A stretch of DNA of 64,000 nucleotides, from assembly GCA_003557765.1 (NCBI GenBank), contig PWNO01000069.1, positions 1 through 64,000 on the forward strand, in the 5' to 3' direction. Positions 7,091-55,707 of this stretch are shown in pieces (the stretch's first letter is position 1; each line of letters opens with the position of its first letter). The translations under genes were made by a program, and so were the position numbers. The notes beneath the pieces are model-generated. The model was not told the DNA's origin, did no database searches, and saw only the letters and a program-made list of their open reading frames with translations. The DNA is from Bacteroidales bacterium. Lineage in GTDB: Bacteria; Bacteroidota; Bacteroidia; Bacteroidales; UBA7960.

Positions 7091-10000
7091 TCACCATCCC
7101 GGGAGGAAGTTCAGACCCCACACGCCTTCCTGGATTCCCCTGGTATGGAAAGGAAATGCCAGGTATGGCTCGAGGATAAGGGCACCAAAGAGGTTGATAC
7201 GTAATGAAGGCCCTGTACTGAACAGTGGAAAGCGCTTGGCCGGATCCAGGGCTTCAGACCTGCTGAGCGTTACGCTGGTGTTCTCTGTCCATGCGACCCC
7301 AGCGTCCAGAAACCAAGCCAGCTCAGTAAACAGGAAGTTGCTGCTGATCAGGGCAAGCTGCTCAGGACCCGTAAAAGGTACGCGCACCTCCAATCCCCCG
7401 AGAAGCATCCGGCTGCCCTGAAGCTCTTCGAACCTGAATGCATCATCAAAGGTTGACTGAATCTGCCTGAGCGTAGAAAAATCGTATCCACGCACATATC
7501 CCGGGAATCCCAGGTAAAGAGGATAGAAGAGGTCATTCTCCGCCTCAGGTCCATAGCGCCCGCGGTGAATACCACGCATCGCCACGGTTATAGGATTAAA
7601 CCGGAAGTAGTGCCGGTAATCTGCGGTCACCGTATACATGTTGACCCGTCCAAACATCCTTTCGCCTCCGATCCGATATCTGTAACCGGCCATTGGCGAT
7701 GCCATCCCAAAATAGGAATTGTCACCCACATAGGCCATGTTGACTCTTTGCTGGGAGAATCCGTCCGGTGCATCCAATCGCTCCCTGTCAGGCGCTCCTA
7801 CTGGAAATCCTTGAAAATAATAGTTATTGATCGCATCTATGCGGAAATAATACCAGGCGAGGTTTGCACCGGCCTCTATGCGTCGTGTGGTAGAGATCGG
7901 ATAGGAGGCAAAGGCGCCTATCTGGTCCTCAAAGGTTCGCTGTGTCAAAAGCTGCAGATTATCAACCTGTACCGGGCCATCAGGTGTCATAAGTGTATCC
8001 TGTACGAAACGAAGGGTCGAAAAAGGAAAAGGAATATGGGAGATGGTGCCACCCCAGTTGATCCTGCTCTTTTGGTTCAGATAGCCAACCATACCGCCAA
8101 AGTCATATATCTCACCATTCACTGCCAGACTGGCAAACAACTGGTTGTCTCCGGTGATGTCACTAAACATCATGCTTACGCCACCCGACATGCCGGTTCC
8201 GAAACGGCTCGTCGCCAGGCCCACTCCGGAGCTTCCCACGAAGGTGAGACCAAACCGCCCGTCATAGGGTTTTTCCTCCAGTTTTTCTCTCGGAAGGATG
8301 GGTTCCATGGGTTCTACGTCCAAAGATGCATCCACGATGGAGGGTACCACTGCTTCGAAAGGCGGCAATATGGAAGCTGTCATGTCAATTTCCATTGGGT
8401 CCACCTCTACCCTTTCAAAGTCATCGGGGGAAGCACTGTATATCGAATAATTACCAGCCTGAAAGTGGCTGTAAAAAACCCGGCCGGTTTCCAGGGAAAC
8501 ACTCATGGCAGGTGTCATGTGGGTAATGCCACTGATCCCGGTATAATAGTCCGTCAGTCGAAATACCTGCCCGGTCTCCAATTCAATCTCATACAGGTTG
8601 CGATACCCATCTGCATTACTCAAAAAGTAGATGCTTTGCTGATCGGGAGCAAAAATCGGGTTGATGTTTTCTGCTCCGGGGAAAGCATCAAGCACGGTGA
8701 TTGGCCTTTCCGGATGTTTCAGGTCCATAATGGCCAGGTTCATGCGCATGTTCAGTTTGTCATCAGCCTGAGCCGACTGTGGCCTGTCGGTGGCAAAAGC
8801 AAGGTGGCGTCCGTCTGGCGAGAAAGCAGCATGGATGTAAGAGTATCTGTCATTCGTCAACGGGGTGACCTCCTTGCTTGACAAGTTAAAGCGAAACAAG
8901 TTGGGCCGCCCATCCACCAGTCCGTTAAAGACGATATACTCTCCGTCGGGCGACCAGGTGGGGTTGTTGAAAGCAGGCACCCCAGGAATTTTGATTTCCT
9001 GTGTCCTTCTTGGTCTGTTCACATCTACAATCACCAGCTGGTTACGCCCCCTTTTAACAGCCACGTGGGCAAACCGGTCTCCGTCGGGAGACCATGTCCC
9101 CCTGGACTCAAAGAAATTGTAACCATCAATATCTCCCATGCGGGTGGCGCTCGATAATTTACTTACCACTTCACCGGTTTCTGCATCGGCCAGGAACAGG
9201 TCAATGGAGAGGAGGTCGCGTTCGGAGAAGAAACCGATTTTTGAACCGTCCGGACTGACTGCCGGGGCAATGTTGATGGAGCCGGAGTTTTCAGGTGTCA
9301 CCAGAGGTTTCCCGACGGGCACGTGTCTTGCACTATCCTCCATCAAAGGGCCATAATGGGTTTCCATGGAAGATTTCCACATGTTTGACACGCTACGGTG
9401 ACTCAGGCCAACAACCCTTTCAAACGCCCGTTCATAACCAAATTTGGCCGTTTCCGAAAACATTGGCGTGATCAGTGAATCTCCCCAGGCACGTCCGAAA
9501 AAGGATAAGAAGGCATGTCCAAACCGATAGGGATTATAGGAATAGTCACGGGTCATTTCTTGCAAGGTGGGGAAGTCATCCTGATGTATGGCGTCCCGCA
9601 TGACCATAGCCGTATGCGTATCCACGCTGCCGAGCGACATATACTCGGCCATGCCTTCCACCCACCAGAGGGGCAGGTTTCGGATGGAGTTCAGACCAAG
9701 TGAATCCTTTAAAAACATTTGCCGGAACTGAAAGACGTGGACCAATTCGTGACCGATCACGTGGTCGGTTTGTGCATTGGTTTCCAGGATGGGCATCACC
9801 ACACGATTTTTTAGTGCTTCTGTTACACCGAGTGTGCCCACGCCAATCATGCCGCTGATGGCCGTGGTCTGCTGAAAGTCCGGGTGGTTAGCATAGATCA
9901 GGATGGGATTGCGGGTCTCAAAAGTATCCTTGAATATCTTCTGATGCCGTTCATACCACTTTTCGTGGGCATTGGCCACGAAGGTCGGTATGGAATCGTC

Positions 10001-10180
10001 TTCAAAATAATGATAAATGTCGAAATGCGGGCTTTGAAACATCTCAAAATCAAAGCGCTGATAGCTGGGCCTGTTTCGTCCGAAATATTGCCCAGAGACC
10101 ATGGAGGGCACAACCAGCAACACAAGCATCAAAACAAGCGCCCCATGCCTGGCAAAATCCTTTGTTCCAAAATACTTCAT
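7091..10180 (-). CDS. Metallopeptidase-propeller-barrel outer membrane protein
   Basis: This 1029-residue exported protein has a signal peptide of about 30 residues (hydrophobic ALVLMLVLLVVPSMVSG). Residues near 35-290 form a gluzincin-like peptidase domain with the motif HELVHVFQ (HExxH) and a downstream WVEGMAEYMS (glutamate ligand candidate). Next come five or six TolB/PD40-type propeller repeats (SPDGSKIGFFSERD, SPDGDRFAHVAV, SPDGEYIVFNGL, SPDGRHLAFATD, APDQQSIYFLS). The last 400 or so residues are rich in amphipathic strands and resemble an Omp85/surface-antigen-like barrel. All three parts are consistent with a surface or periplasmic-facing outer-membrane protein. The substrate is unknown. 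It could be a protease tethered to the outer membrane or a now non-catalytic scaffold, although the HExxH and glutamate are intact. Confidence 0.75.
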   Translation of the reverse strand: MKYFGTKDFARHGALVLMLVLLVVPSMVSGQYFGRNRPSYQRFDFEMFQSPHFDIYHYFEDDSIPTFVANAHEKWYERHQKIFKDTFETRNPILIYANHPDFQQTTAISGMIGVGTLGVTEALKNRVVMPILETNAQTDHVIGHELVHVFQFRQMFLKDSLGLNSIRNLPLWWVEGMAEYMSLGSVDTHTAMVMRDAIHQDDFPTLQEMTRDYSYNPYRFGHAFLSFFGRAWGDSLITPMFSETAKFGYERAFERVVGLSHRSVSNMWKSSMETHYGPLMEDSARHVPVGKPLVTPENSGSINIAPAVSPDGSKIGFFSERDLLSIDLFLADAETGEVVSKLSSATRMGDIDGYNFFESRGTWSPDGDRFAHVAVKRGRNQLVIVDVNRPRRTQEIKIPGVPAFNNPTWSPDGEYIVFNGLVDGRPNLFRFNLSSKEVTPLTNDRYSYIHAAFSPDGRHLAFATDRPQSAQADDKLNMRMNLAIMDLKHPERPITVLDAFPGAENINPIFAPDQQSIYFLSNADGYRNLYEIELETGQVFRLTDYYTGISGITHMTPAMSVSLETGRVFYSHFQAGNYSIYSASPDDFERVEVDPMEIDMTASILPPFEAVVPSIVDASLDVEPMEPILPREKLEEKPYDGRFGLTFVGSSGVGLATSRFGTGMSGGVSMMFSDITGDNQLFASLAVNGEIYDFGGMVGYLNQKSRINWGGTISHIPFPFSTLRFVQDTLMTPDGPVQVDNLQLLTQRTFEDQIGAFASYPISTTRRIEAGANLAWYYFRIDAINNYYFQGFPVGAPDRERLDAPDGFSQQRVNMAYVGDNSYFGMASPMAGYRYRIGGERMFGRVNMYTVTADYRHYFRFNPITVAMRGIHRGRYGPEAENDLFYPLYLGFPGYVRGYDFSTLRQIQSTFDDAFRFEELQGSRMLLGGLEVRVPFTGPEQLALISSNFLFTELAWFLDAGVAWTENTSVTLSRSEALDPAKRFPLFSTGPSLRINLFGALILEPYLAFPFHTRGIQEGVWGLNFLPGW

Positions 10181-10545
10181 ATGCGTTATTTTACATTATA
10201 CGATGACCGTATTTAGCTATCCCTACAAAACAAAAACCGTTCCAAACTAACGATTTACCTAAATCCAACAGCCCGCAATACTATATTGTTCGTAACCCAA
10301 TGATCAAAAGTACAAAATCCATATACAGCCTCCACATTTCCTTCATATCACCTGCTTCTAATCCATGTGTTCAAAACACATTGCTCTCATTGCGCACGAA
10401 GAGCGTTTTTGCAAATATCATTTTATATACATTTTTGTATGCGTTGATTTTGTGGGACTTAAAAAAAACCGATAAAAAAAATCAACTTTTTGTTTTTTTA
10501 TAAGGAAAATACTGCTTAATATTGCATCCGGAGAACAAAACAATC
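10181..10545. other. Divergent intergenic region upstream of trp leader
   Basis: This AT-rich spacer separates the minus-strand peptidase gene from the trp leader. It contains the candidate trp promoter at 10406-10437 and several poly-A/poly-T runs (10461-10499). A 67-codon open frame at 10300-10503 has low-complexity, non-protein-like composition, and I do not accept it as a gene. Confidence 0.6.
10406..10437 (+). promoter_or_regulatory. Candidate trp operon promoter
   Basis: TTTTTG at 10406-10411 is followed after 18 bp by CATTTTTG at 10430-10437, a one-base mismatch to the Bacteroidota -33 TTTG / -7 TAnnTTTG promoter. Transcription would begin near 10444, about 100 nt before the leader peptide. 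A weaker alternative is TTTTTG at 10487 with TAATATTG at 10517 (24-bp spacing). Confidence 0.4.
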
Positions 10546-10629
10546 ATGAAAAAATCGAATCACATATCTTTTTGCTGGTGGTGGCCCGTCCTAACCGTTT
10601 CGTGTGTTGAGCACCACGGCCCTATCTGA
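10546..10629 (+). CDS. trpL: trp operon leader peptide (three Trp codons)
   Basis: ATG at 10546 to TGA at 10627-10629 encodes 27 residues beginning MKKSNHISFC and then Trp-Trp-Trp (codons 11-13, TGG TGG TGG at 10576-10584), followed by PVLTV. Tryptophan is the rarest residue, and three in a row just before an intrinsic terminator and trpE is the signature of ribosome-mediated attenuation. The peptide product itself is probably not functional; its translation senses charged tRNA-Trp. The stop codon lies just past the antiterminator's 5' arm (10604-10621), so a terminating ribosome would mask that arm. The peptide has no known homologue that I can name, as expected for leader peptides. Confidence 0.88.
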   Translation: MKKSNHISFCWWWPVLTVSCVEHHGPI

Positions 10630-10680
10630 TGTGTGTACAATAAAATCTGATTTAATTACGCCCACAGGCCTGCTTGACAC
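10578..10680 (+). promoter_or_regulatory. trp antiterminator and alternative 1:2 hairpin
   Basis: Bases 10604-10613 (GTGTTGAGCA) can pair continuously with 10671-10680 (TGCTTGACAC) over 10 bp including two G-U pairs. GGCC at 10618-10621 can also pair with GGCC at 10667-10670. This helix uses the 5' half of the downstream terminator, so the two are mutually exclusive. A competing hairpin pairs GTGGTG of the Trp codons (10578-10583) with CACCAC at 10612-10617. A ribosome stalled on the Trp codons would disrupt that hairpin and leave 10604 onward free, favouring antitermination. The pairings were read by hand, not folded computationally. Confidence 0.78.
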
Positions 10681-10699
10681 CCAAGCAGGCTTTTTTTTT
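10668..10699 (+). terminator. trp attenuator (intrinsic terminator)
   Basis: A perfect 9-bp stem, GCCTGCTTG (10668-10676) with CAAGCAGGC (10682-10690), has a 5-nt loop and nine T residues (10691-10699). It sits 17 bp before the trpE start codon, between the leader peptide and the operon, so it must act as a conditional terminator. Confidence 0.93.
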
Positions 10700-10716
10700 A
10701 AACAAACAGGAAAAAA

Positions 10717-12117
10717 ATGTTTCAGATTAAAACAACCCATATCCCCGGCGACACCCATACTCCTGTGGGTGTCTATCTTAGGTTACGCGATGTTTTTCCT
10801 CAATGTCTGCTGCTTGAATGCTCCGATTACAGCTCGCGACAGAATGCCTTCTCTTACATTTGCATTAAACCCATTGCAGGCATCACGACCACACAAAAGC
10901 AATATGAGGTCAGAAGACCTGATGGGAGTTCTGAAGCACATCCATGCCATGACCTTTTGAAGCTTCCGGACATCGTGGATGACTTTATGGATACTTTGCC
11001 AAAGCCCCCGGTGGAAGATAACAGAATCATGCCGGGTGTTTTCGGTTATACCTCTTATGATGCGGTAAATGGATTTGATAATGTAGACATTAAGCGTCCA
11101 CTGTTGGAGGACAACAATTCCATTCCATTGTTAAGGTATGATCTTTACCAGATAGTAATCGCATTCAATCATTTTGACAGCCTGATCAGCATTACAGAGA
11201 TAATGCCGGAGGGAGAAGATTCTATCAGCGATGATGTAATTTCTATCATATCCAATCGAAACAATACTTTTTTCCCTTTCAGGATTGCGGGTGATGAAAG
11301 GGTACGGACTTCCGATGCGGACTTCAGACAGCAGGTAAAAAAGGGCATACAGTCTTGTGCAAGGGGTGATGTCATTCAAATCGTCTTATCCAGGCAATAT
11401 GAACAGGACTTTGCGGGTGATGAATTTAATGTCTATCGGGCTTTGCGTTCGATTAATCCATCACCGTATTTGTTTTATTTCGACTATCTGGATTTCAAGC
11501 TTTTTGGCTCGTCCCCCGAGGCGCAGCTACAGGTGGGCAATGGCAAGGCCACCATTAATCCTATCGCTGGTACGGTAATTAGAACAGGTGATCCTGGAAA
11601 CGACCAACGGTTGATTGAAAAACTTTTAGGAGACCCCAAGGAAAATTCGGAGCATGCCATGCTGGTGGACCTGGCCCGGAATGATCTCAGCCGGCATGCC
11701 CATAATGTGAAGGTTGACAGTTACCGTGAAGTGCACACCTATTCTCATCTGATACATTTGGTGTCAACCGTGACCGGAACACTGAATGCAAAGTCACGAC
11801 TCTATCGCCTTTTTGCCGACAGTTTCCCTGCAGGGACTCTTTCTGGAGCACCGAAGCACAAGGCCATTCAACTGATAGACAAATATGAGAGAAAGAGCCG
11901 GGGGTTTTATGGCGGAGCCATTGGAATCATGGGGTTTGATCACTCCTTGAATCATGCGATTATGATACGCTCGCTTATGAGCAAAAATGGAACACTTTAT
12001 TATCAGGCAGGTGCCGGAGTAGTGATAGATTCCAGCCCGGAAGGAGAACTCAATGAAGTAAATGGAAAAGTTTCAGCACTTCGCAAAGCCATCATGCGGG
12101 CAGGTGCCAATACCTGA
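10717..12117 (+). CDS. trpE: Anthranilate synthase component I
   Basis: TrpE is the aminating subunit that converts chorismate to anthranilate with ammonia from TrpG, the first committed step of tryptophan synthesis. At 466 residues it is normal for the family. The catalytic chorismate-binding block is complete: PIAGTVIRTG, NSEHAMLVDLARNDL, TLSGAPKHKA, GFYGGAIGIMGFD and YQAGAGVVIDSSPEGE. The N-terminal feedback region reads LLEC (residues 32-35), where the enteric enzyme has LLES; this serine is part of the tryptophan-binding site there. The gene directly follows the attenuator and heads the trpEGDCFBA operon. The 118-bp gap to trpG holds no recognisable element. Confidence 0.96.
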   Translation: MFQIKTTHIPGDTHTPVGVYLRLRDVFPQCLLLECSDYSSRQNAFSYICIKPIAGITTTQKQYEVRRPDGSSEAHPCHDLLKLPDIVDDFMDTLPKPPVEDNRIMPGVFGYTSYDAVNGFDNVDIKRPLLEDNNSIPLLRYDLYQIVIAFNHFDSLISITEIMPEGEDSISDDVISIISNRNNTFFPFRIAGDERVRTSDADFRQQVKKGIQSCARGDVIQIVLSRQYEQDFAGDEFNVYRALRSINPSPYLFYFDYLDFKLFGSSPEAQLQVGNGKATINPIAGTVIRTGDPGNDQRLIEKLLGDPKENSEHAMLVDLARNDLSRHAHNVKVDSYREVHTYSHLIHLVSTVTGTLNAKSRLYRLFADSFPAGTLSGAPKHKAIQLIDKYERKSRGFYGGAIGIMGFDHSLNHAIMIRSLMSKNGTLYYQAGAGVVIDSSPEGELNEVNGKVSALRKAIMRAGANT

Positions 12118-12235: not shown

Positions 12236-12811
12236 ATGGCGAAAATATTGATTTTAGACAATTACGACTCTTTTACCTATAACCTGGTGCATTACGTGCA
12301 GGAGTTTGGCAGCCATGACATCGAAGTGTATCGAAACGACCAGATAGGCCTGGATGTCATAGATAAATATCATGGGATCATTCTTTCTCCCGGACCAGGA
12401 GTGCCTTCAGAGGCGGGATTGCTGCCGGACATAATTAAAAAGTATTACAAAAGCAAACGAATTCTGGGTGTTTGCCTTGGACAGCAAGCTATAGGAGAGG
12501 TTTTTTCAGGCAAGCTGACCAACCTCACCAGGGTTTTTCATGGTGTCGCGACGCCAATCGATATTTTTCAACCTGCCCATTATCTTTTTGATGGGATACC
12601 AGAAAAGCCACAGGTTGGAAGATACCACTCATGGGTTGTTGACCCGGACAGCATTCCGGATTGTCTGAAAGCAGAGGCTGTAGATGAAAACGGGCAAATC
12701 ATGGCTTTGGCACACCGCGATTATGATGTCTGCGGTGTGCAATTCCATCCTGAATCCATTCTCACACCTAATGGCAAGGATATGGTTTTTAACTGGTTAA
12801 AAAGGTTTTAG
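12236..12811 (+). CDS. trpG: Anthranilate synthase component II (glutamine amidotransferase)
   Basis: TrpG is a class I glutamine amidotransferase that hydrolyses glutamine and channels ammonia to TrpE. I place the start at ATG 12236, giving MAKILILDNYDSFTYN, the normal family N-terminus and 191 residues. An open frame reaches back to 12158, but those 26 residues have no family character. The catalytic triad is visible: Cys80 in GVCLGQQ, and His171 and Glu173 in QFHPES. SPGPGVPSEAG forms the oxyanion region. Second gene of the trp operon. Confidence 0.95.
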   Translation: MAKILILDNYDSFTYNLVHYVQEFGSHDIEVYRNDQIGLDVIDKYHGIILSPGPGVPSEAGLLPDIIKKYYKSKRILGVCLGQQAIGEVFSGKLTNLTRVFHGVATPIDIFQPAHYLFDGIPEKPQVGRYHSWVVDPDSIPDCLKAEAVDENGQIMALAHRDYDVCGVQFHPESILTPNGKDMVFNWLKRF

Positions 12812-12935
12812 TTTTAACATTTTAACCTATGTGTATCACCTGGCATTGGCTGTATGCTTGAATGATTGCCATTTTGTATCGGTCAGATCATGAAACGAAG
12901 GCCACGCAGACGATGTCCAAAGTAAAACCTGAAAA

Positions 12936-13928
12936 ATGAAATTCATTCTTAATAAACTTCTGGAGTCCCTTACACTCGAGCGCCGGGAAGCATATGAGCT
13001 GATGCATGGCATAGCTGCCGGACAACTGAACGAAGCCAGGATGGCAGCTGTATTAACTGCCTTAATCATGCGCAGCATTAGCCTGGATGAACTGCTGGGC
13101 TTTCGCGAAGCGCTATTGGAGCTTGCCATAAAACCACAGCTAAACAATGGCGATGCCATAGACTTATGTGGCACAGGAGGGGATGGCAAAAACACCTTTA
13201 ATATCTCTACCTTGTCTTCCTTTGTGGTTGCTGGTGCTGGAATACCAGTAGCCAAGCATGGCAATTATGGCGTGTCTTCCACTTCCGGGTCCTCCAATGT
13301 AATGGAGCATCTGGGCTACAGATTCTCCAATGATGCCGACAAGCTTAAAAGGGAATTAGAAAAAACCGGCATATGCTTTATGCATGCGCCCCTATTTCAT
13401 CCGGCCCTGAAAGCCGTCGGGGGTGTCAGGCGGCAATTGGGAATGAAAAGCTTTTTTAACATCCTGGGGCCATTGGTCAATCCGGCCATGCCAAATTATC
13501 AGTCCAGCGGGGTTTTTAACCTGGAAACAGGACGCATCTATAGTTACCTGTTACAGCGTGAAGAAAAGGAATTCAGGGTGGTGCACAGCCTCGATGGTTA
13601 TGACGAGGTCAGTCTGACTGCCCATACGAGAATATTTTCACCAAAGGGAGAGTACCTGTTAAAAGCTGCGGATTTCAGCATGCAAGCACTGATGCCACAT
13701 GAACTTTATGGAGGCGAAAGCGTGGAGGATGCCGCAGCTATATTTCTGAAAGTATTGCAAGGTGAAGCCACAAAAGCTCAAAAAAATGCTGTGGTGGCCA
13801 ACGCCGCCCTGGCCATCCATTGTTACAGAAAAAGCATCGATCTGCAAGATGCCGTGGAAGAGGCCACCGAGTCCCTGGCTTCAAAAAAAGCCTTACAAAA
13901 ACTACATGAACTGATCAAATTGCAATAA
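12936..13928 (+). CDS. trpD: Anthranilate phosphoribosyltransferase
   Basis: TrpD transfers the phosphoribosyl group of PRPP to anthranilate. The 330-residue length is typical. GTGGDGKNTFNIST (residues 79-92) is the PRPP/Mg-binding glycine-rich loop, and KHGNYGVSSTSGS (107-119) is the second conserved substrate-binding segment. It is a stand-alone TrpD, not fused to TrpG. A 124-bp spacer precedes it, larger than the tight spacing later in the operon, and it is followed after 4 bp by trpC. Confidence 0.96.
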   Translation: MKFILNKLLESLTLERREAYELMHGIAAGQLNEARMAAVLTALIMRSISLDELLGFREALLELAIKPQLNNGDAIDLCGTGGDGKNTFNISTLSSFVVAGAGIPVAKHGNYGVSSTSGSSNVMEHLGYRFSNDADKLKRELEKTGICFMHAPLFHPALKAVGGVRRQLGMKSFFNILGPLVNPAMPNYQSSGVFNLETGRIYSYLLQREEKEFRVVHSLDGYDEVSLTAHTRIFSPKGEYLLKAADFSMQALMPHELYGGESVEDAAAIFLKVLQGEATKAQKNAVVANAALAIHCYRKSIDLQDAVEEATESLASKKALQKLHELIKLQ

Positions 13929-13932
13929 AAAA

Positions 13933-14718
13933 ATGAACATACTGGAAGAGATCCTTGCCTGGAAAAGAAAAGAGGTCAGCGAAAACAAAGCGCTTTATCC
14001 AATAAAGCTTCTGGAGAGAAGCCCCTATTTTACAGCAAAACCCGTGTCGCTCAGGCACTATCTTTCCCGGGAAGACCTGTCGGGCATCATCGCTGAATTC
14101 AAAAGGCAATCACCATCTAAAGGGATGATCAACGAATACGCAACCCCGGCTGAGGTTTGCCTGGAATATGTGCAGGCCGGGGCTTCAGCACTGTCAGTAA
14201 TTACCGACAACAAATACTTTGGGGGCAGCAACCAGGATTTAGTAACTGCGCGCAAAAACAACTATTGCCCAATCCTGAGGAAAGACTTTATGCTGGATGA
14301 ATACCAGCTCATAGAAGCAAGAAGCATAGGTGCTGATGTGGTATTGCTCATCGCCGAAATCCTTACAGCCAAAGAGCTAAAAAGGCTTTCTGCATTAGCA
14401 AAGGAGCTGCAAATGGAGGTGTTGTTTGAAGTACACGAACGAGCAAGCCTTGACAAACTGCCGCCTGAGGCTGACCTGGTGGGCGTCAACAACCGCAACC
14501 TTAAAAGTTTTGAAGTGGATGTGGCAAACAGTTTTAAACTTGCGGAATGCCTGCCCAATGATGCTACCCGCGTGACGGAAAGCGGGATTGCAACCCCCCG
14601 CATCGCACAACAACTAAAAAAGGCAGGATTCTCGGGCTTGCTCATGGGCGAGCGCTTTATGCGTGAAGCCAACCCGGGAAAAGCCTGCAGGCTTTTTATC
14701 AGCAGGCTTAAAAATTAA
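13933..14718 (+). CDS. trpC: Indole-3-glycerol phosphate synthase
   Basis: TrpC closes the indole ring: carboxyphenylamino-deoxyribulose phosphate goes to indole-3-glycerol phosphate with loss of CO2 and water. At 261 residues it is a single-function (beta/alpha)8 barrel, not fused to TrpF. Visible active-site elements are IIAEFKRQSPSKG (Glu55 and Lys57), ILRKDFMLDEYQ, LFEVHERASLD and GVNNRNLKSFEVD, and a phosphate-binding TESGI near the end. It starts 4 bp after trpD, so translation is probably coupled. Confidence 0.96.
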   Translation: MNILEEILAWKRKEVSENKALYPIKLLERSPYFTAKPVSLRHYLSREDLSGIIAEFKRQSPSKGMINEYATPAEVCLEYVQAGASALSVITDNKYFGGSNQDLVTARKNNYCPILRKDFMLDEYQLIEARSIGADVVLLIAEILTAKELKRLSALAKELQMEVLFEVHERASLDKLPPEADLVGVNNRNLKSFEVDVANSFKLAECLPNDATRVTESGIATPRIAQQLKKAGFSGLLMGERFMREANPGKACRLFISRLKN

Positions 14719-14828
14719 GCATTTGTTGACTGCGAAGCACATGAATAAGACAGCTCATGGTGTTGATGCAAAACTGACCAGAAGTGATACGTTGGCAAAT
14801 GATGAGTATGAACAGAAAAGGATACGGC

Positions 14829-15491
14829 ATGCAAAGGAAAAATAAAACATACAGACTTAAAGTATGTGGGATGCGTGAAGCAGATAACATCCTGGAGGTT
14901 GCCAATATGCGGCCTGATTTTATGGGATTTATATTTCACGAAACCTCACCAAGAGACGTAAGCCATTTAGCAGACATGCTGCCATTGAAACAAATCCCTG
15001 AAAGCATCAAAAAAGTCCTGGTGGTTGTAAATAAGCCTTTGGCGCATGTGTTGCAACTGCTTGAAAATTATGACTTTGACCTTGTGCAGTTGCATGGTGC
15101 GGAAAGCCCGGAATACTGCATGTTGATGCGTGAAAAAGTCCCCGTCATAAAAGTTTTTCCCGTTTGGGATGCCTTACCAGCCGATTTATCACTTTATGAT
15201 GGTGTTTGTGATTACTTTCTCTTTGACAGCAAAGGAGATAAGGCCGGCGGCAATGGGATTGCCTTTCCCCATGAAATCCTGAAAACCTATGCCTCAGAAA
15301 AACCTTTTTTTCTAAGTGGCGGGCTTACATCTGCACATGCATCGCTGATCCCGCATTTGCAGCTGCCCCGGCTATACGGCATGGATATCAACAGCAGGTT
15401 TGAGACCCGGCCCGGATTGAAAGACCCCAAGCTGGTAAAACATTTTAAAGACAAACTCGACAAGCCTTATGTACAATATAGCGAACAATAA
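14829..15491 (+). CDS. trpF: Phosphoribosylanthranilate isomerase
   Basis: TrpF performs the Amadori rearrangement between the TrpD and TrpC steps. LKVCGM (catalytic Cys13 from this start), LVQLHGAESPEYC, FDSKGDKAGGNG and FFLSGGL with GMDINSRFETRPGLKD (general acid Asp and phosphate loop) are all present. I chose ATG 14829, which places KVCGM ten residues in, as in the family. In-frame alternatives are GTG 14784 and ATG 14799, 14802 and 14808. The 3' end overlaps trpB by 23 bp. Confidence 0.93.
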   Translation: MQRKNKTYRLKVCGMREADNILEVANMRPDFMGFIFHETSPRDVSHLADMLPLKQIPESIKKVLVVVNKPLAHVLQLLENYDFDLVQLHGAESPEYCMLMREKVPVIKVFPVWDALPADLSLYDGVCDYFLFDSKGDKAGGNGIAFPHEILKTYASEKPFFLSGGLTSAHASLIPHLQLPRLYGMDINSRFETRPGLKDPKLVKHFKDKLDKPYVQYSEQ

Positions 15492-16680
15492 TGGGTATTA
15501 TGGCGCTTTTGGCGGAGCATACATTCCTGAAATGCTTTATCCCAATATAGAAGAGCTTCGCAGTCAATATTTGAAAATCCTGGAAAGCCCGGGTTTTCAA
15601 AGAGATTTTTATGCATTGCTTAAAGATTATGTAGGACGCCCCACTCCTTTATTTTATTCAGAAAATCTCTCTTCAGCACTTAAGGCCCGGGTCTATATCA
15701 AGCGGGAAGACCTATGCCATACCGGTGCCCACAAGCTTAACAATGTAGTAGGGCAGGCCCTGATGGCTAAACACATGAAAAAGCAGCAGGTTATAGCAGA
15801 AACGGGGGCAGGACAGCATGGGGTGGCGGCTGCAACCGTCTGTGCATTGCTTAAAATTCCCTGTACTGTTTTTATGGGAAGTAAAGACATGACCCGCCAG
15901 CAGCCAAATGTGCTGCGAATGAAAATGCTTGGCGCCCGGGTTATCCCTGTTGAATCGGGCAGCAAAAGCCTCAAGGATGCCACCAATGAAGCCATTCGTC
16001 ACTGGATTAATCACCCTGAGGATACGTACTACCTCATTGGATCCACCATAGGGCCTCATCCTTATCCTGACCTGGTGGCACGCTTGCAATCAGTCATCAG
16101 TGAGGAGATTGCTTCTCAGCTCATGAAAAAAGAAAACAAGGAAGCGCCCGATTATGTGTTTGCCTGCACCGGTGGCGGCAGCAATGCAGCAGGAGCCTTC
16201 TTTCACTTCATTGGCAATGAAACGACACGTCTGATTGGCGCAGAAGCAGCAGGAGAAGGAATCGGTTCAACACACACAGCCGCCACCATTCTTACAGGCA
16301 GACCGGGCATTATTCATGGATGCAAAACCCTGTTAATGCAAACCCCGGACGGACAAGTAGAAGAGGCACATTCTGTTTCAGCCGGTCTTGATTATCCGGG
16401 CATCGGGCCCATGCATGCAAATCTGCATATCACAGGAATGGCCAAATATCTTGCTGTCACTGACAGCGAAGCACTGGATGCTGCCCTGAGATTCAGCCAG
16501 TGTGATGGAATTATCCCGGCCCTGGAGTCAGCTCATGCCATAGCTGCCATGTACAAAACCCCCTTTCAGGATACCGATGTGGTGGTACTTTGCCTCAGTG
16601 GAAGAGGAGATAAAGACCTGGAAACGTATCAAAAACATTTTTTAACACATGAACGCACTGCAAAAACTTCTGAAGTATAA
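15469..16680 (+). CDS. trpB: Tryptophan synthase beta chain
   Basis: TrpB is the PLP enzyme that joins indole and serine to make tryptophan. This is the standard TrpB1 type (403 residues), with FGGAYIPEML at the N-terminus and HTGAHKLNN carrying the PLP lysine (Lys89). The AETGAGQHG loop (catalytic Glu111) contacts the carboxylate of serine, and CTGGGSNAAG is the PLP phosphate loop. Its start codon lies inside trpF and its last 32 bp overlap trpA, so the TrpA2B2 complex subunits are translationally coupled. Confidence 0.97.
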   Translation: MYNIANNNGYYGAFGGAYIPEMLYPNIEELRSQYLKILESPGFQRDFYALLKDYVGRPTPLFYSENLSSALKARVYIKREDLCHTGAHKLNNVVGQALMAKHMKKQQVIAETGAGQHGVAAATVCALLKIPCTVFMGSKDMTRQQPNVLRMKMLGARVIPVESGSKSLKDATNEAIRHWINHPEDTYYLIGSTIGPHPYPDLVARLQSVISEEIASQLMKKENKEAPDYVFACTGGGSNAAGAFFHFIGNETTRLIGAEAAGEGIGSTHTAATILTGRPGIIHGCKTLLMQTPDGQVEEAHSVSAGLDYPGIGPMHANLHITGMAKYLAVTDSEALDAALRFSQCDGIIPALESAHAIAAMYKTPFQDTDVVVLCLSGRGDKDLETYQKHFLTHERTAKTSEV

Positions 16681-17428
16681 AAGGCAGAACCTCTTGTCTT
16701 TGTTTTTTACGGCCGGTTTTCCAAAACTGGATGACACAGTGTCCATAATCAAAGCAGCCGAAAGCAAAGGAATAGACTTCCTGGAAGTGGGGATGCCTTA
16801 CTCTGATCCGCTGGCCGATGGACCTGTTATACAGCAAAGCAGCATGGCTGCCATCAAAAATGGCATGACCATCCCGCTCCTGATGAAGCAGCTTAAGAAA
16901 ATACAGGTTGATGCCAACATCCCGCTTTTGCTTATGGGCTATCTTAATCCAGTGATTCAGTATGGCGTGGAGCGTTTCCTGGATGATGCGGCCGAAAGAG
17001 GCATCTCCGGCCTAATTTTACCCGATCTGCCACTAACCGAATACCAAAGAGCATATCAACCCTTGTTTGAAGAAAGACAAATCAGCCCGGTATTTTTGAT
17101 TACCCCGCAAACATCCGACGAAAGGGCAAGGCTTATGGATAGCCATTCCAATGCATTTATCTATGTAGTAAGCACTGCTGCCACCACTGGAAAGCAAAAG
17201 ATTTTTGGGCCTGAACAGGAAGCTTACTTTGACAGAATCTGCTCCCTGAACTTAAAAAACCCCCTGATAGCAGGCTTTGGAATCTCCAACGCAGAAAACC
17301 TGCAAAAAGCCTGGAAACATTTTAGCGGCGGGATCTGTGGTTCAGCTTTTCTTAAAAAACTAGCCTTGCATGACACGGTGGAAAGTGCTTTGGACGCCTT
17401 GCTGGCAGAACTGTTAATGGTCGATTAA
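16649..17428 (+). CDS. trpA: Tryptophan synthase alpha chain
   Basis: TrpA cleaves indole-3-glycerol phosphate and passes indole through a tunnel to TrpB. LEVGMPYSDPLADGP contains both catalytic acids (Glu46 and Asp57, equivalent to Glu49 and Asp60 of the enteric enzyme). LPDLPLTEY and the late GFGISN phosphate loop are also present. At 259 residues it is full length. It starts 32 bp inside trpB and is the last gene of the operon. No strong intrinsic terminator follows; the nearest palindrome, at 17483-17507, lacks a T-run. Confidence 0.97.
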   Translation: MNALQKLLKYKRQNLLSLFFTAGFPKLDDTVSIIKAAESKGIDFLEVGMPYSDPLADGPVIQQSSMAAIKNGMTIPLLMKQLKKIQVDANIPLLLMGYLNPVIQYGVERFLDDAAERGISGLILPDLPLTEYQRAYQPLFEERQISPVFLITPQTSDERARLMDSHSNAFIYVVSTAATTGKQKIFGPEQEAYFDRICSLNLKNPLIAGFGISNAENLQKAWKHFSGGICGSAFLKKLALHDTVESALDALLAELLMVD

Positions 17429-20846: not shown

Positions 20847-20920
20847 GGCGGGGTAGCTCAGGTGGTTAGAGCGTCGGATTCATAACCCGAAGGTCACGGG
20901 TTCAACTCCCGTCCCCGCTA
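20847..20920 (+). tRNA. tRNA-Met (CAT), elongator type
   Basis: A full cloverleaf can be drawn by hand. The acceptor is GGCGGGG/CCCCGCT with a G-U first pair, the D-arm is GCTC/GAGC, the T-arm is ACGGG/CCCGT and the discriminator is A. The anticodon arm is TCGGA/CCCGA around loop TTCATAA, with CAT as the anticodon and one A-C mismatch at the base of the loop. The paired 1-72 position excludes the initiator, which has an unpaired first base. A lysidine-modified tRNA-Ile(CAT) cannot be excluded by eye. CCA is not encoded. Confidence 0.93.
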
Positions 20921-55310: not shown

Positions 55311-55707
55311 ATACAAGAGGCAGGTTGTCCTGTCGCGTTCTGCTCCGGGCAGAATGAGGAAAGTCCGGGCAACACAGAGCAGCATACTTCCTAACGGGAA
55401 GCCGGCCTGCATGACAGGCTGCGAGAAAGTGCCGCAGAAAATTACCGCCTAAGCCCGGTTTTTCCGGGCCGGTAAGGGTGAAAACGTGAGGTAAGAGCTC
55501 ACGCCTTGTTTGGGTGACCAGACAAGGGGGTAAACCTTATGCGTTGAAAGGCCAAATATACCGGGGCCCGAGGGTGGCTCGCCCGATCCCGGAGGGTAGG
55601 CCGATAGAGGCAGCATGTGAATACTGCCCCAGATAAATGACAGGAAACACGCAATAGGCGTGCGACAGAACCCGGCTTACAGGCCTGCCTCTTGTTCTTT
55701 TTTTTTA
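55311..55707 (+). ncRNA. rnpB: RNase P RNA, class A
   Basis: The catalytic RNA of RNase P matures tRNA 5' ends. ACAAGAGGCAGG at 55313 pairs with CCTGCCTCTTGT ending at 55695 to form helix P1. GAGGAAAGTCCGGGC is the universal 5' core (CR I), GGTGAAA with the GTGAG/CTCAC helix is in the middle, and ACAGAACCCGGCTTACAGGCC is the 3' core (CR V). The T-run at 55698-55706 ends it. About 385 nt fits the bacterial A type. Confidence 0.96.

Follow-up and report, generated by a model that had tools for sequence, protein, structure and literature searches.

The trp leader and its operon

The window, by which we mean the whole 64,000-nucleotide stretch of Bacteroidales DNA analysed here, holds a tryptophan biosynthetic operon that runs from trpE to trpA, preceded by a compact set of leader features (Table 1). 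The leader ORF starts with the ATG at 10546, ends with the TGA at 10627-10629 and encodes the 27-residue peptide MKKSNHISFCWWWPVLTVSCVEHHGPI; its three TGG codons could be read directly where the original prediction had placed them, and it was the only WWW-bearing frame in the window in a scan of M-started ORFs of up to 46 residues. A short leader ORF with tandem Trp codons before a Trp biosynthetic operon is a hallmark of attenuation, as is the intrinsic terminator that lies between the leader and the first gene. Because the upstream neighbor, a gene at 7091-10180, is on the minus strand, the leader occupies a divergent intergenic region. From the leader stop to trpE the distance is 87 nt, with the strong terminator in between, and the gap that separates the end of the T9 tract from the trpE ATG (10700-10716) measures 17 nt. 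Farther down the operon, the frames of trpF and trpB overlap by 23 bases (15469-15491) and those of trpB and trpA by 32 bases (16649-16680), which suggests translational coupling.

Table 1. Features of the trp leader region and operon, in order of position in the window
Feature	Position	Strand	Basis or value
Candidate -7 promoter element TAATATTG	10517..10524	+	5/6 fixed positions of TAnnTTTG
Leader peptide ORF, MKKSNHISFCWWWPVLTVSCVEHHGPI and stop	10546..10629	+	27 codons, read from sequence
Segment 1, 5' strand of the competing (1:2) hairpin, core GUGGUG at 10578-10583	10574..10583	+	folds
Trp control codons, TGG x3	10576..10584	+	sequence, relatives' leaders, alignment
Segment 2, antiterminator arm GTGTTGAGCA	10604..10613	+	duplex with 10671-10680, -11.8 kcal/mol
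CACCACGGC, 3' strand of the competing hairpin	10612..10620	+	folds
GGCC, possible antiterminator extension	10618..10621	+	partner GGCC at 10667-10670
Intrinsic terminator, stem 10667-10676/10682-10691 and T9 10691-10699	10666..10699	+	-17.5 kcal/mol
Segment 3, terminator 5' arm and loop, antiterminator partner	10667..10680	+	folds, alignment
trpE, first gene of the operon	10717..12117	+	TIGR00564 E=5e-113, below the curated cut-off of TIGR00564
trpG, trpD, trpC, trpF, trpB, trpA, in that order	12236..17428	+	all on the same strand

The -7 promoter element of Bacteroidota has the consensus TAnnTTTG. The candidate promoter of the original prediction keeps that status: TAATATTG departs from the consensus at a single fixed position and sits at -29 from the leader ATG, within the region in which TAnnTTTG elements are concentrated in relatives. 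The promoter counts cover 78 of 80 related leaders. In 28 of the 78, TAnnTTTG occurs within 80 nt of the ATG, against 4.3 in mononucleotide shuffles, and 22 of these 28 elements lie at -22 to -39; the fuller arrangement TTG-18/24-TAnnTTTG occurs in 18 of the 78, against 0.3 in shuffles. A scan of 10000-11200 for promoters of the E. coli type returned nothing on the plus strand. Shine-Dalgarno-like tetramers are present in just 4 of the 78 leaders, and the sequence immediately upstream is A-rich (0.50). Judging by these elements, the transcript would start near 10530.

The terminator stem comprises 10 pairs, or 11 in the scan, where the outer A-T pair is counted (hairpin 10666-10692); the original prediction was right about the T9 tract and the 17-nt gap and gave the stem a length of 9 bp, which does not stand. 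The continuous antiterminator pairing that it proposed can be read directly from the letters, 10604-10613 (GTGTTGAGCA) forming with 10671-10680 (TGCTTGACAC) an unbroken 10-bp helix that includes two G-U pairs. The GGCC extension likewise can pair as proposed, the duplex of both antiterminator regions then reaching -20.0 kcal/mol, and shows no conservation in the alignment of relatives. Antiterminator and terminator are mutually exclusive, to judge by complementarity and folds, covariation alone being not significant. A further hairpin, absent from the original account, joins the Trp codons to CACCACGGC (10574-10583 with 10612-10620, -13.1 kcal/mol); folded without a ribosome and before segment 3 is transcribed, it has a probability of 0.61, and it probably helps to weaken the antiterminator.

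Conservation of the leader and its two designs

A search of 118 relatives for TrpE gave matches in 48 at E<=1e-60, and one across 393 genomes of the order gave 154 at E<=1e-100. The 127 trpE upstreams compared here come from 44 of the 48 genomes and, for 83 of them, from the order-wide set (23 + 60 loci); left out were L009, L010, L020, and L023, which came without upstream sequence, the paralogues L005 and L006, and the duplicates L001 and L002, and in part of the loci, including the 60 order-wide ones, the start of trpE was approximated by the start of the TrpE match. Frames with Trp runs, which the original prediction proposed to look for in relatives, are common: a leader ORF no longer than 70 codons contains WW in 91 of the 127 upstreams and WWW in 75, compared with averages of 3.0 and 0 in dinucleotide shuffles and with 1 and 0 on the reverse strand, a few of the 91 resembling chance ORFs within an upstream gene (L032, for example, by eye). 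The other 36 have no WW leader, and in some of these (L029, L034) trpB, identified by eye, extends up to trpE. In the MAG 'Bacteroidales bacterium isolate B1Sed10_143R1' (L001), TrpE is 98% identical to that of the window, and the stretch from leader start to trpE shows two differences, a substitution past the leader stop and an additional T in the tail. In a second MAG (L002), with TrpE at 68% identity, the leader peptide, MTLRFRMYNFWWWRSGVIRCVKHFLPPTKMR, is unlike that of the window, and the antiterminator, GTGTTAAGC with GCTTAACAC, is made of Watson-Crick pairs throughout.

The antiterminator comes in two designs. In class A, to which the window belongs, GUGUURAGC pairs with GCUURACAC, which the terminator carries in its inner 5' arm and loop, a core present in 22 of 23 loci that were hand-picked as candidates. 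In class B, found in more distant relatives, arms such as CCGUGAG pair with the loop and the inner 3' arm (CUCACGG). The class B arm includes the UGA stop of the leader in several loci (L025, L038, L062, L064, and L090).

Both an ORF and a terminator were accepted by rule in 80 of the 96 loci with a TGG run, some of the remaining 16 being lost for a hairpin without an adjacent T run (L019, L022) or to a contig end (L015), and the best arm begins 15-22 nt past the last Trp codon in 62 of the 80. Against shuffles, the match between arm and terminator reaches p<0.05 in 31 of these loci, 15 of them with p<0.01; for L003, from the window's species, 3 of 300 shuffles equal it (p=0.013), and Fisher's combined p over the 80 loci, 1e-23, is not to be taken as a probability because the loci are related. 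Arms fit their own terminators better than those of other loci, with a mean of 17.46 for cognate as against 14.04 for non-cognate combinations (0 of 20000 permutations, all 80 loci), and the outcome is unchanged when class A is set aside (63 loci, 0 of 20000). For the 17 class A loci, in which arms and loops hardly vary, cognate pairing is no better than non-cognate (1851 of 20000 permutations).

The same constancy bears on covariation. In the nine-pair antiterminator core of class A, 95.9% of 171 cells in 19 sequences are standard pairs, a paired-cell count equalled in 167 of 500 shuffles, and the two two-sided pairs are reached by 58 of 500, which is not significant; the core is so constant within the sub-type that covariation lends the antiterminator no support. 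In the terminator, 100% of the 167 cells of the 19-row alignment are paired and 17 are two-sided, a number reached by 0 of 500 shuffles. Of the two helices in which the original prediction would have counted compensatory changes as support, the terminator shows them beyond shuffles. The arm core is read in three frames among the relatives, C-V-K/E, V-L-S (L011, L024), and L-C-stop (L056-L058), which argues that the RNA, not the peptide, is under selection.

A covariance model, R1, was built from 18 relatives, without the window's species, its rows being picked for a window-like core. In the window, R1 matches 10567-10702 with 66.8 bits (E=6.5e-15), the next best match having E=1. Among the 118 relatives, it matches 35 genomes at E<=0.01 and, at E<1e-12, 18 genomes in 19 places, most of them donors of model rows; G001, not a row donor, is matched at E=2.9e-13. 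Of the 19 places, 16 are upstream of a trpE match on the same contig and 3 are near the end of another contig. RF01692, the Rfam model of a Bacteroidetes Trp leader, has no match in the window at its gathering cut-off (49 bits) and none in 10400-10800 at E<=5; in relatives it stays below the cut-off, with 41.7 bits at L037 and 40.2 bits at L030, and it matches 2 of 20 trpE leader loci and none of 12 in a second set. Rfam misses the sub-type of the window, with its own core GUGUURAGC / GCUURACAC, for which R1 provides a covariance model. At curated RNA-model cut-offs, the window contains only RNase P RNA class A (55317-55695) and a tRNA (20847-20920). The one riboswitch candidate in 10400-10800 at E<=5, Sodium on the minus strand, scores 14 bits against a cut-off of 40.5 and was rejected.

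Ribosome position and the choice between helices

Folding the leader with a masked ribosome (footprint -12/+15) yields distinct outcomes for stalled and terminating ribosomes. With a ribosome on W1, W2 or W3 and the RNA extended to 10684-10686, the antiterminator has a probability of 1.00 and the terminator of 0.00, the arm being left free as the original prediction had it; with the RNA extended to 10688, the values for the same stall positions are 0.80-0.83 and 0.17-0.20. Without a ribosome, the terminator already has a probability of 0.95 at 10686 and 1.00 at 10688, and with a terminating ribosome 0.99 and 1.00. In silico, therefore, a ribosome on the control codons alters the choice of helix, and the comparison of masked and unmasked folds that had been suggested comes out as expected, in that a stalled ribosome delays the terminator and a terminating or absent one hardly does. 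The antiterminator also forms transiently without a ribosome (0.72-0.89 with the RNA extended to 10680-10684, compared with 0.21-0.44 for a terminating ribosome), and once the RNA reaches 10691, the terminator prevails at equilibrium in every case, the stalled ribosome included. Since the terminator wins when complete and the antiterminator is transient in the absence of a ribosome, the switch, as modelled, must be kinetic: it would hang on a few nucleotides and be decided as the polymerase crosses the hairpin and the T tract.

For the window's species the stall effect amounts to 0.88; shuffled leaders average 0.10, and 0 of 25 reach so high a value. It exceeds 0.5 in 33 of the 80 loci (9 of 14 and 24 of 66), with 19 of 660 shuffles doing so among the controls for the 66-locus set, and in 12 of the 17 class A loci; in 47 of the 80 it is absent or small. 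In the close relatives L013 and L014 it is about zero, so that the simple fold is an incomplete account.

The analysis shows the sequence, its conservation, the complementarity of its segments, and the model folds; where transcription starts, that the leader is translated, and that the switch answers to Trp are inferred. With a probability of about 0.93, the element is what the original prediction took it to be, an attenuator of trpEGDCFBA transcription that is mediated by the ribosome. Anatomy, conservation, and masked folds accord with this reading, under which regulation might proceed as follows. Transcription would begin a little ahead of the leader ORF, with a ribosome translating the leader in the wake of RNA polymerase. 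A shortage of Trp-tRNA would hold this ribosome at the Trp codons (10576-10584), covering segment 1 and leaving the arm at 10604-10613 free to pair with 10671-10680 before the 3' arm of the terminator is complete, which would permit readthrough into trpE. With ample Trp-tRNA, the ribosome would reach the stop and mask 10612-10639 or, alternatively, leave after the stop, upon which the Trp codons would pair with 10612-10620; in either event, the weakened antiterminator could not hold segment 3, the terminator would form, and transcription would stop at T9. The stop at 10627 does lie just past the arm, as originally described, and the masking of the whole arm has to be corrected because the -12/+15 footprint covers only the last two arm bases and the GGCC extension. 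A tryptophan shortage that stalls ribosomes is probably the one condition under which the trp genes are switched on.

The equilibrium folds, in which a completed terminator always prevails, and the 36 of 127 upstreams without a WW leader are what one would expect if the hairpin were a constitutive terminator that shields trpE from upstream transcription, the Trp-rich ORF being fortuitous. We regard this as very improbable given the WWW leaders in 75 of 127 upstreams, as opposed to 0 in shuffles, the regular spacing to arm and terminator, and the R1 match at E=6.5e-15; moreover, there is little to shield trpE from, the gene at 7091-10180 being on the opposite strand. A leader that acts on trpE translation or mRNA stability, by re-initiation or as a uORF, instead of on termination, would have a precedent in the Bacteroidetes leader ORFs near structural genes that PMC4833913 links to re-initiation, with a peak at 11-14 bp; here the stop is 87 nt away from trpE, and the strong terminator in between covaries (17 two-sided cells, 0 of 500 shuffles), which leaves this mode of action scarcely credible. 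Hardly any probability remains, either, for attenuation through another sensor (a TRAP-like protein, a T-box or a riboswitch) in which the ORF plays a secondary part, a type of system compatible with a bare terminator and alternative helix, given that conservation is centred on the in-frame TGG codons, that TRAP (PF02081; B. subtilis control positive) and TrpR each had no match in six related genomes, MAGs that may be incomplete and of which G001, the genome of L001, was the nearest stand-in for the window's genome in the TRAP search, and that no T-box appeared in 10400-10800 at E<=5.

Known leaders, His leaders and tandem units

The enteric trp attenuator combines tandem Trp codons, competing helices, and a terminator before trpE. 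The window's element shares this logic and matches the corresponding model weakly (RF00513, 21.8 bits, E=0.04); it differs in scoring well below the curated cut-off of 41, and the lack of a TrpR match in the six related genomes is a further difference. Leaders of this kind are known in the phylum, a point on which the original prediction was unsure, because RF01692 is a Bacteroidetes Trp leader: in Table 1 of Weinberg 2010 (PMC2864571) it is listed as 'Bacteroid-trp' from Bacteroidetes, and Rfam names it 'Bacteroidete tryptophan peptide leader RNA'. Like the window's leader, the RF01692 model has UGG codons in a hairpin followed by the apparent start of a terminator; unlike it, the sub-type of the window has a core of its own and an antiterminator that uses the 5' arm and loop of the terminator. 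The element described here is thus sound and belongs to a known kind, outside RF01692 as curated, and is not a first.

In an article from 2010 (PMC2965389), leader peptide systems are said not to be known beyond Proteobacteria and Actinobacteria, with the exception of ermC, and a B. thetaiotaomicron transcriptome study (PMC7366714) mentions short ORFs reminiscent of attenuation leaders. Among the matches listed from the open-access literature, no experimental work on a Bacteroidota trp attenuator was found. Such elements may already be described by Lopatovskaya in 2010 and Vitreschak in 2004.

Histidine synthesis presents a parallel. In G001, the genome from the window's species, hisG has two His-rich leaders ahead of it on the reverse strand (L137), MNNTVHHLHHHVIQPPGC and MITMHHTHHAHHPFHRRRTRWDMFNNR; behind each there is, by eye, a hairpin and T run of its own. 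Such tandem His leaders recur before hisG in G002 (L136) and, judged by eye, in G004 (L140, reverse strand). HisG is present in 71 of the 118 relatives; 34 hisG upstream loci were inspected, and after 13 had been dropped because no gene start or upstream could be identified, 21 were usable, 19 of them with a His-rich leader and 3 with two, compared with 0.3 and 0.0 in shuffles. Among the 127 trpE upstreams, 7 have two WW ORFs, and 5 of those 7 (L025, L026, L060, L065, and L106) have two tandem Trp-leader/terminator units, a count that excludes L079 and L126, with two WW ORFs each. The tandem attenuators of Salmonella mgtCBR, which answer different signals, ATP and proline, according to PMC3641672, are similar in that two tandem leader ORFs precede one operon, as at hisG and some trpE loci here, and differ in that the paired leaders described here both carry codons for one and the same amino acid. 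Among the 12 articles listed in a search on tandem leaders, none showed a same-amino-acid pair by title or start of abstract, which is not proof of absence.

It is conceivable, at somewhat less than even odds, that Trp and His synthesis in Bacteroidales is widely under ribosome-mediated attenuators of a non-Rfam design, in which the arm seizes the terminator by its loop, together with the 5' arm in class A and, in class B, where the leader arm lies at or across the leader's stop codon, with the 3' arm, and that some operons stack two of them for one amino acid, which would steepen the response. Ribosome-mediated attenuation requires a ribosome that keeps up with RNA polymerase where the operon begins. 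Should the many Trp and His leaders of Bacteroidales attenuate in this manner, transcription-translation coupling becomes testable in this phylum, where few leaders carry a Shine-Dalgarno-like site (4 of 78).

The search for similar leaders of other operons yielded none that was convincing, either for Phe before PF00800 genes, which four of six genomes have, or for Thr before PF00742 genes, which five of six have. The G001 MAG has no match to prephenate dehydratase (PF00800) or homoserine dehydrogenase (PF00742), through either incompleteness or auxotrophy. At L145, two short Phe-rich ORFs, possible Phe leaders, lie before a prephenate dehydratase gene.
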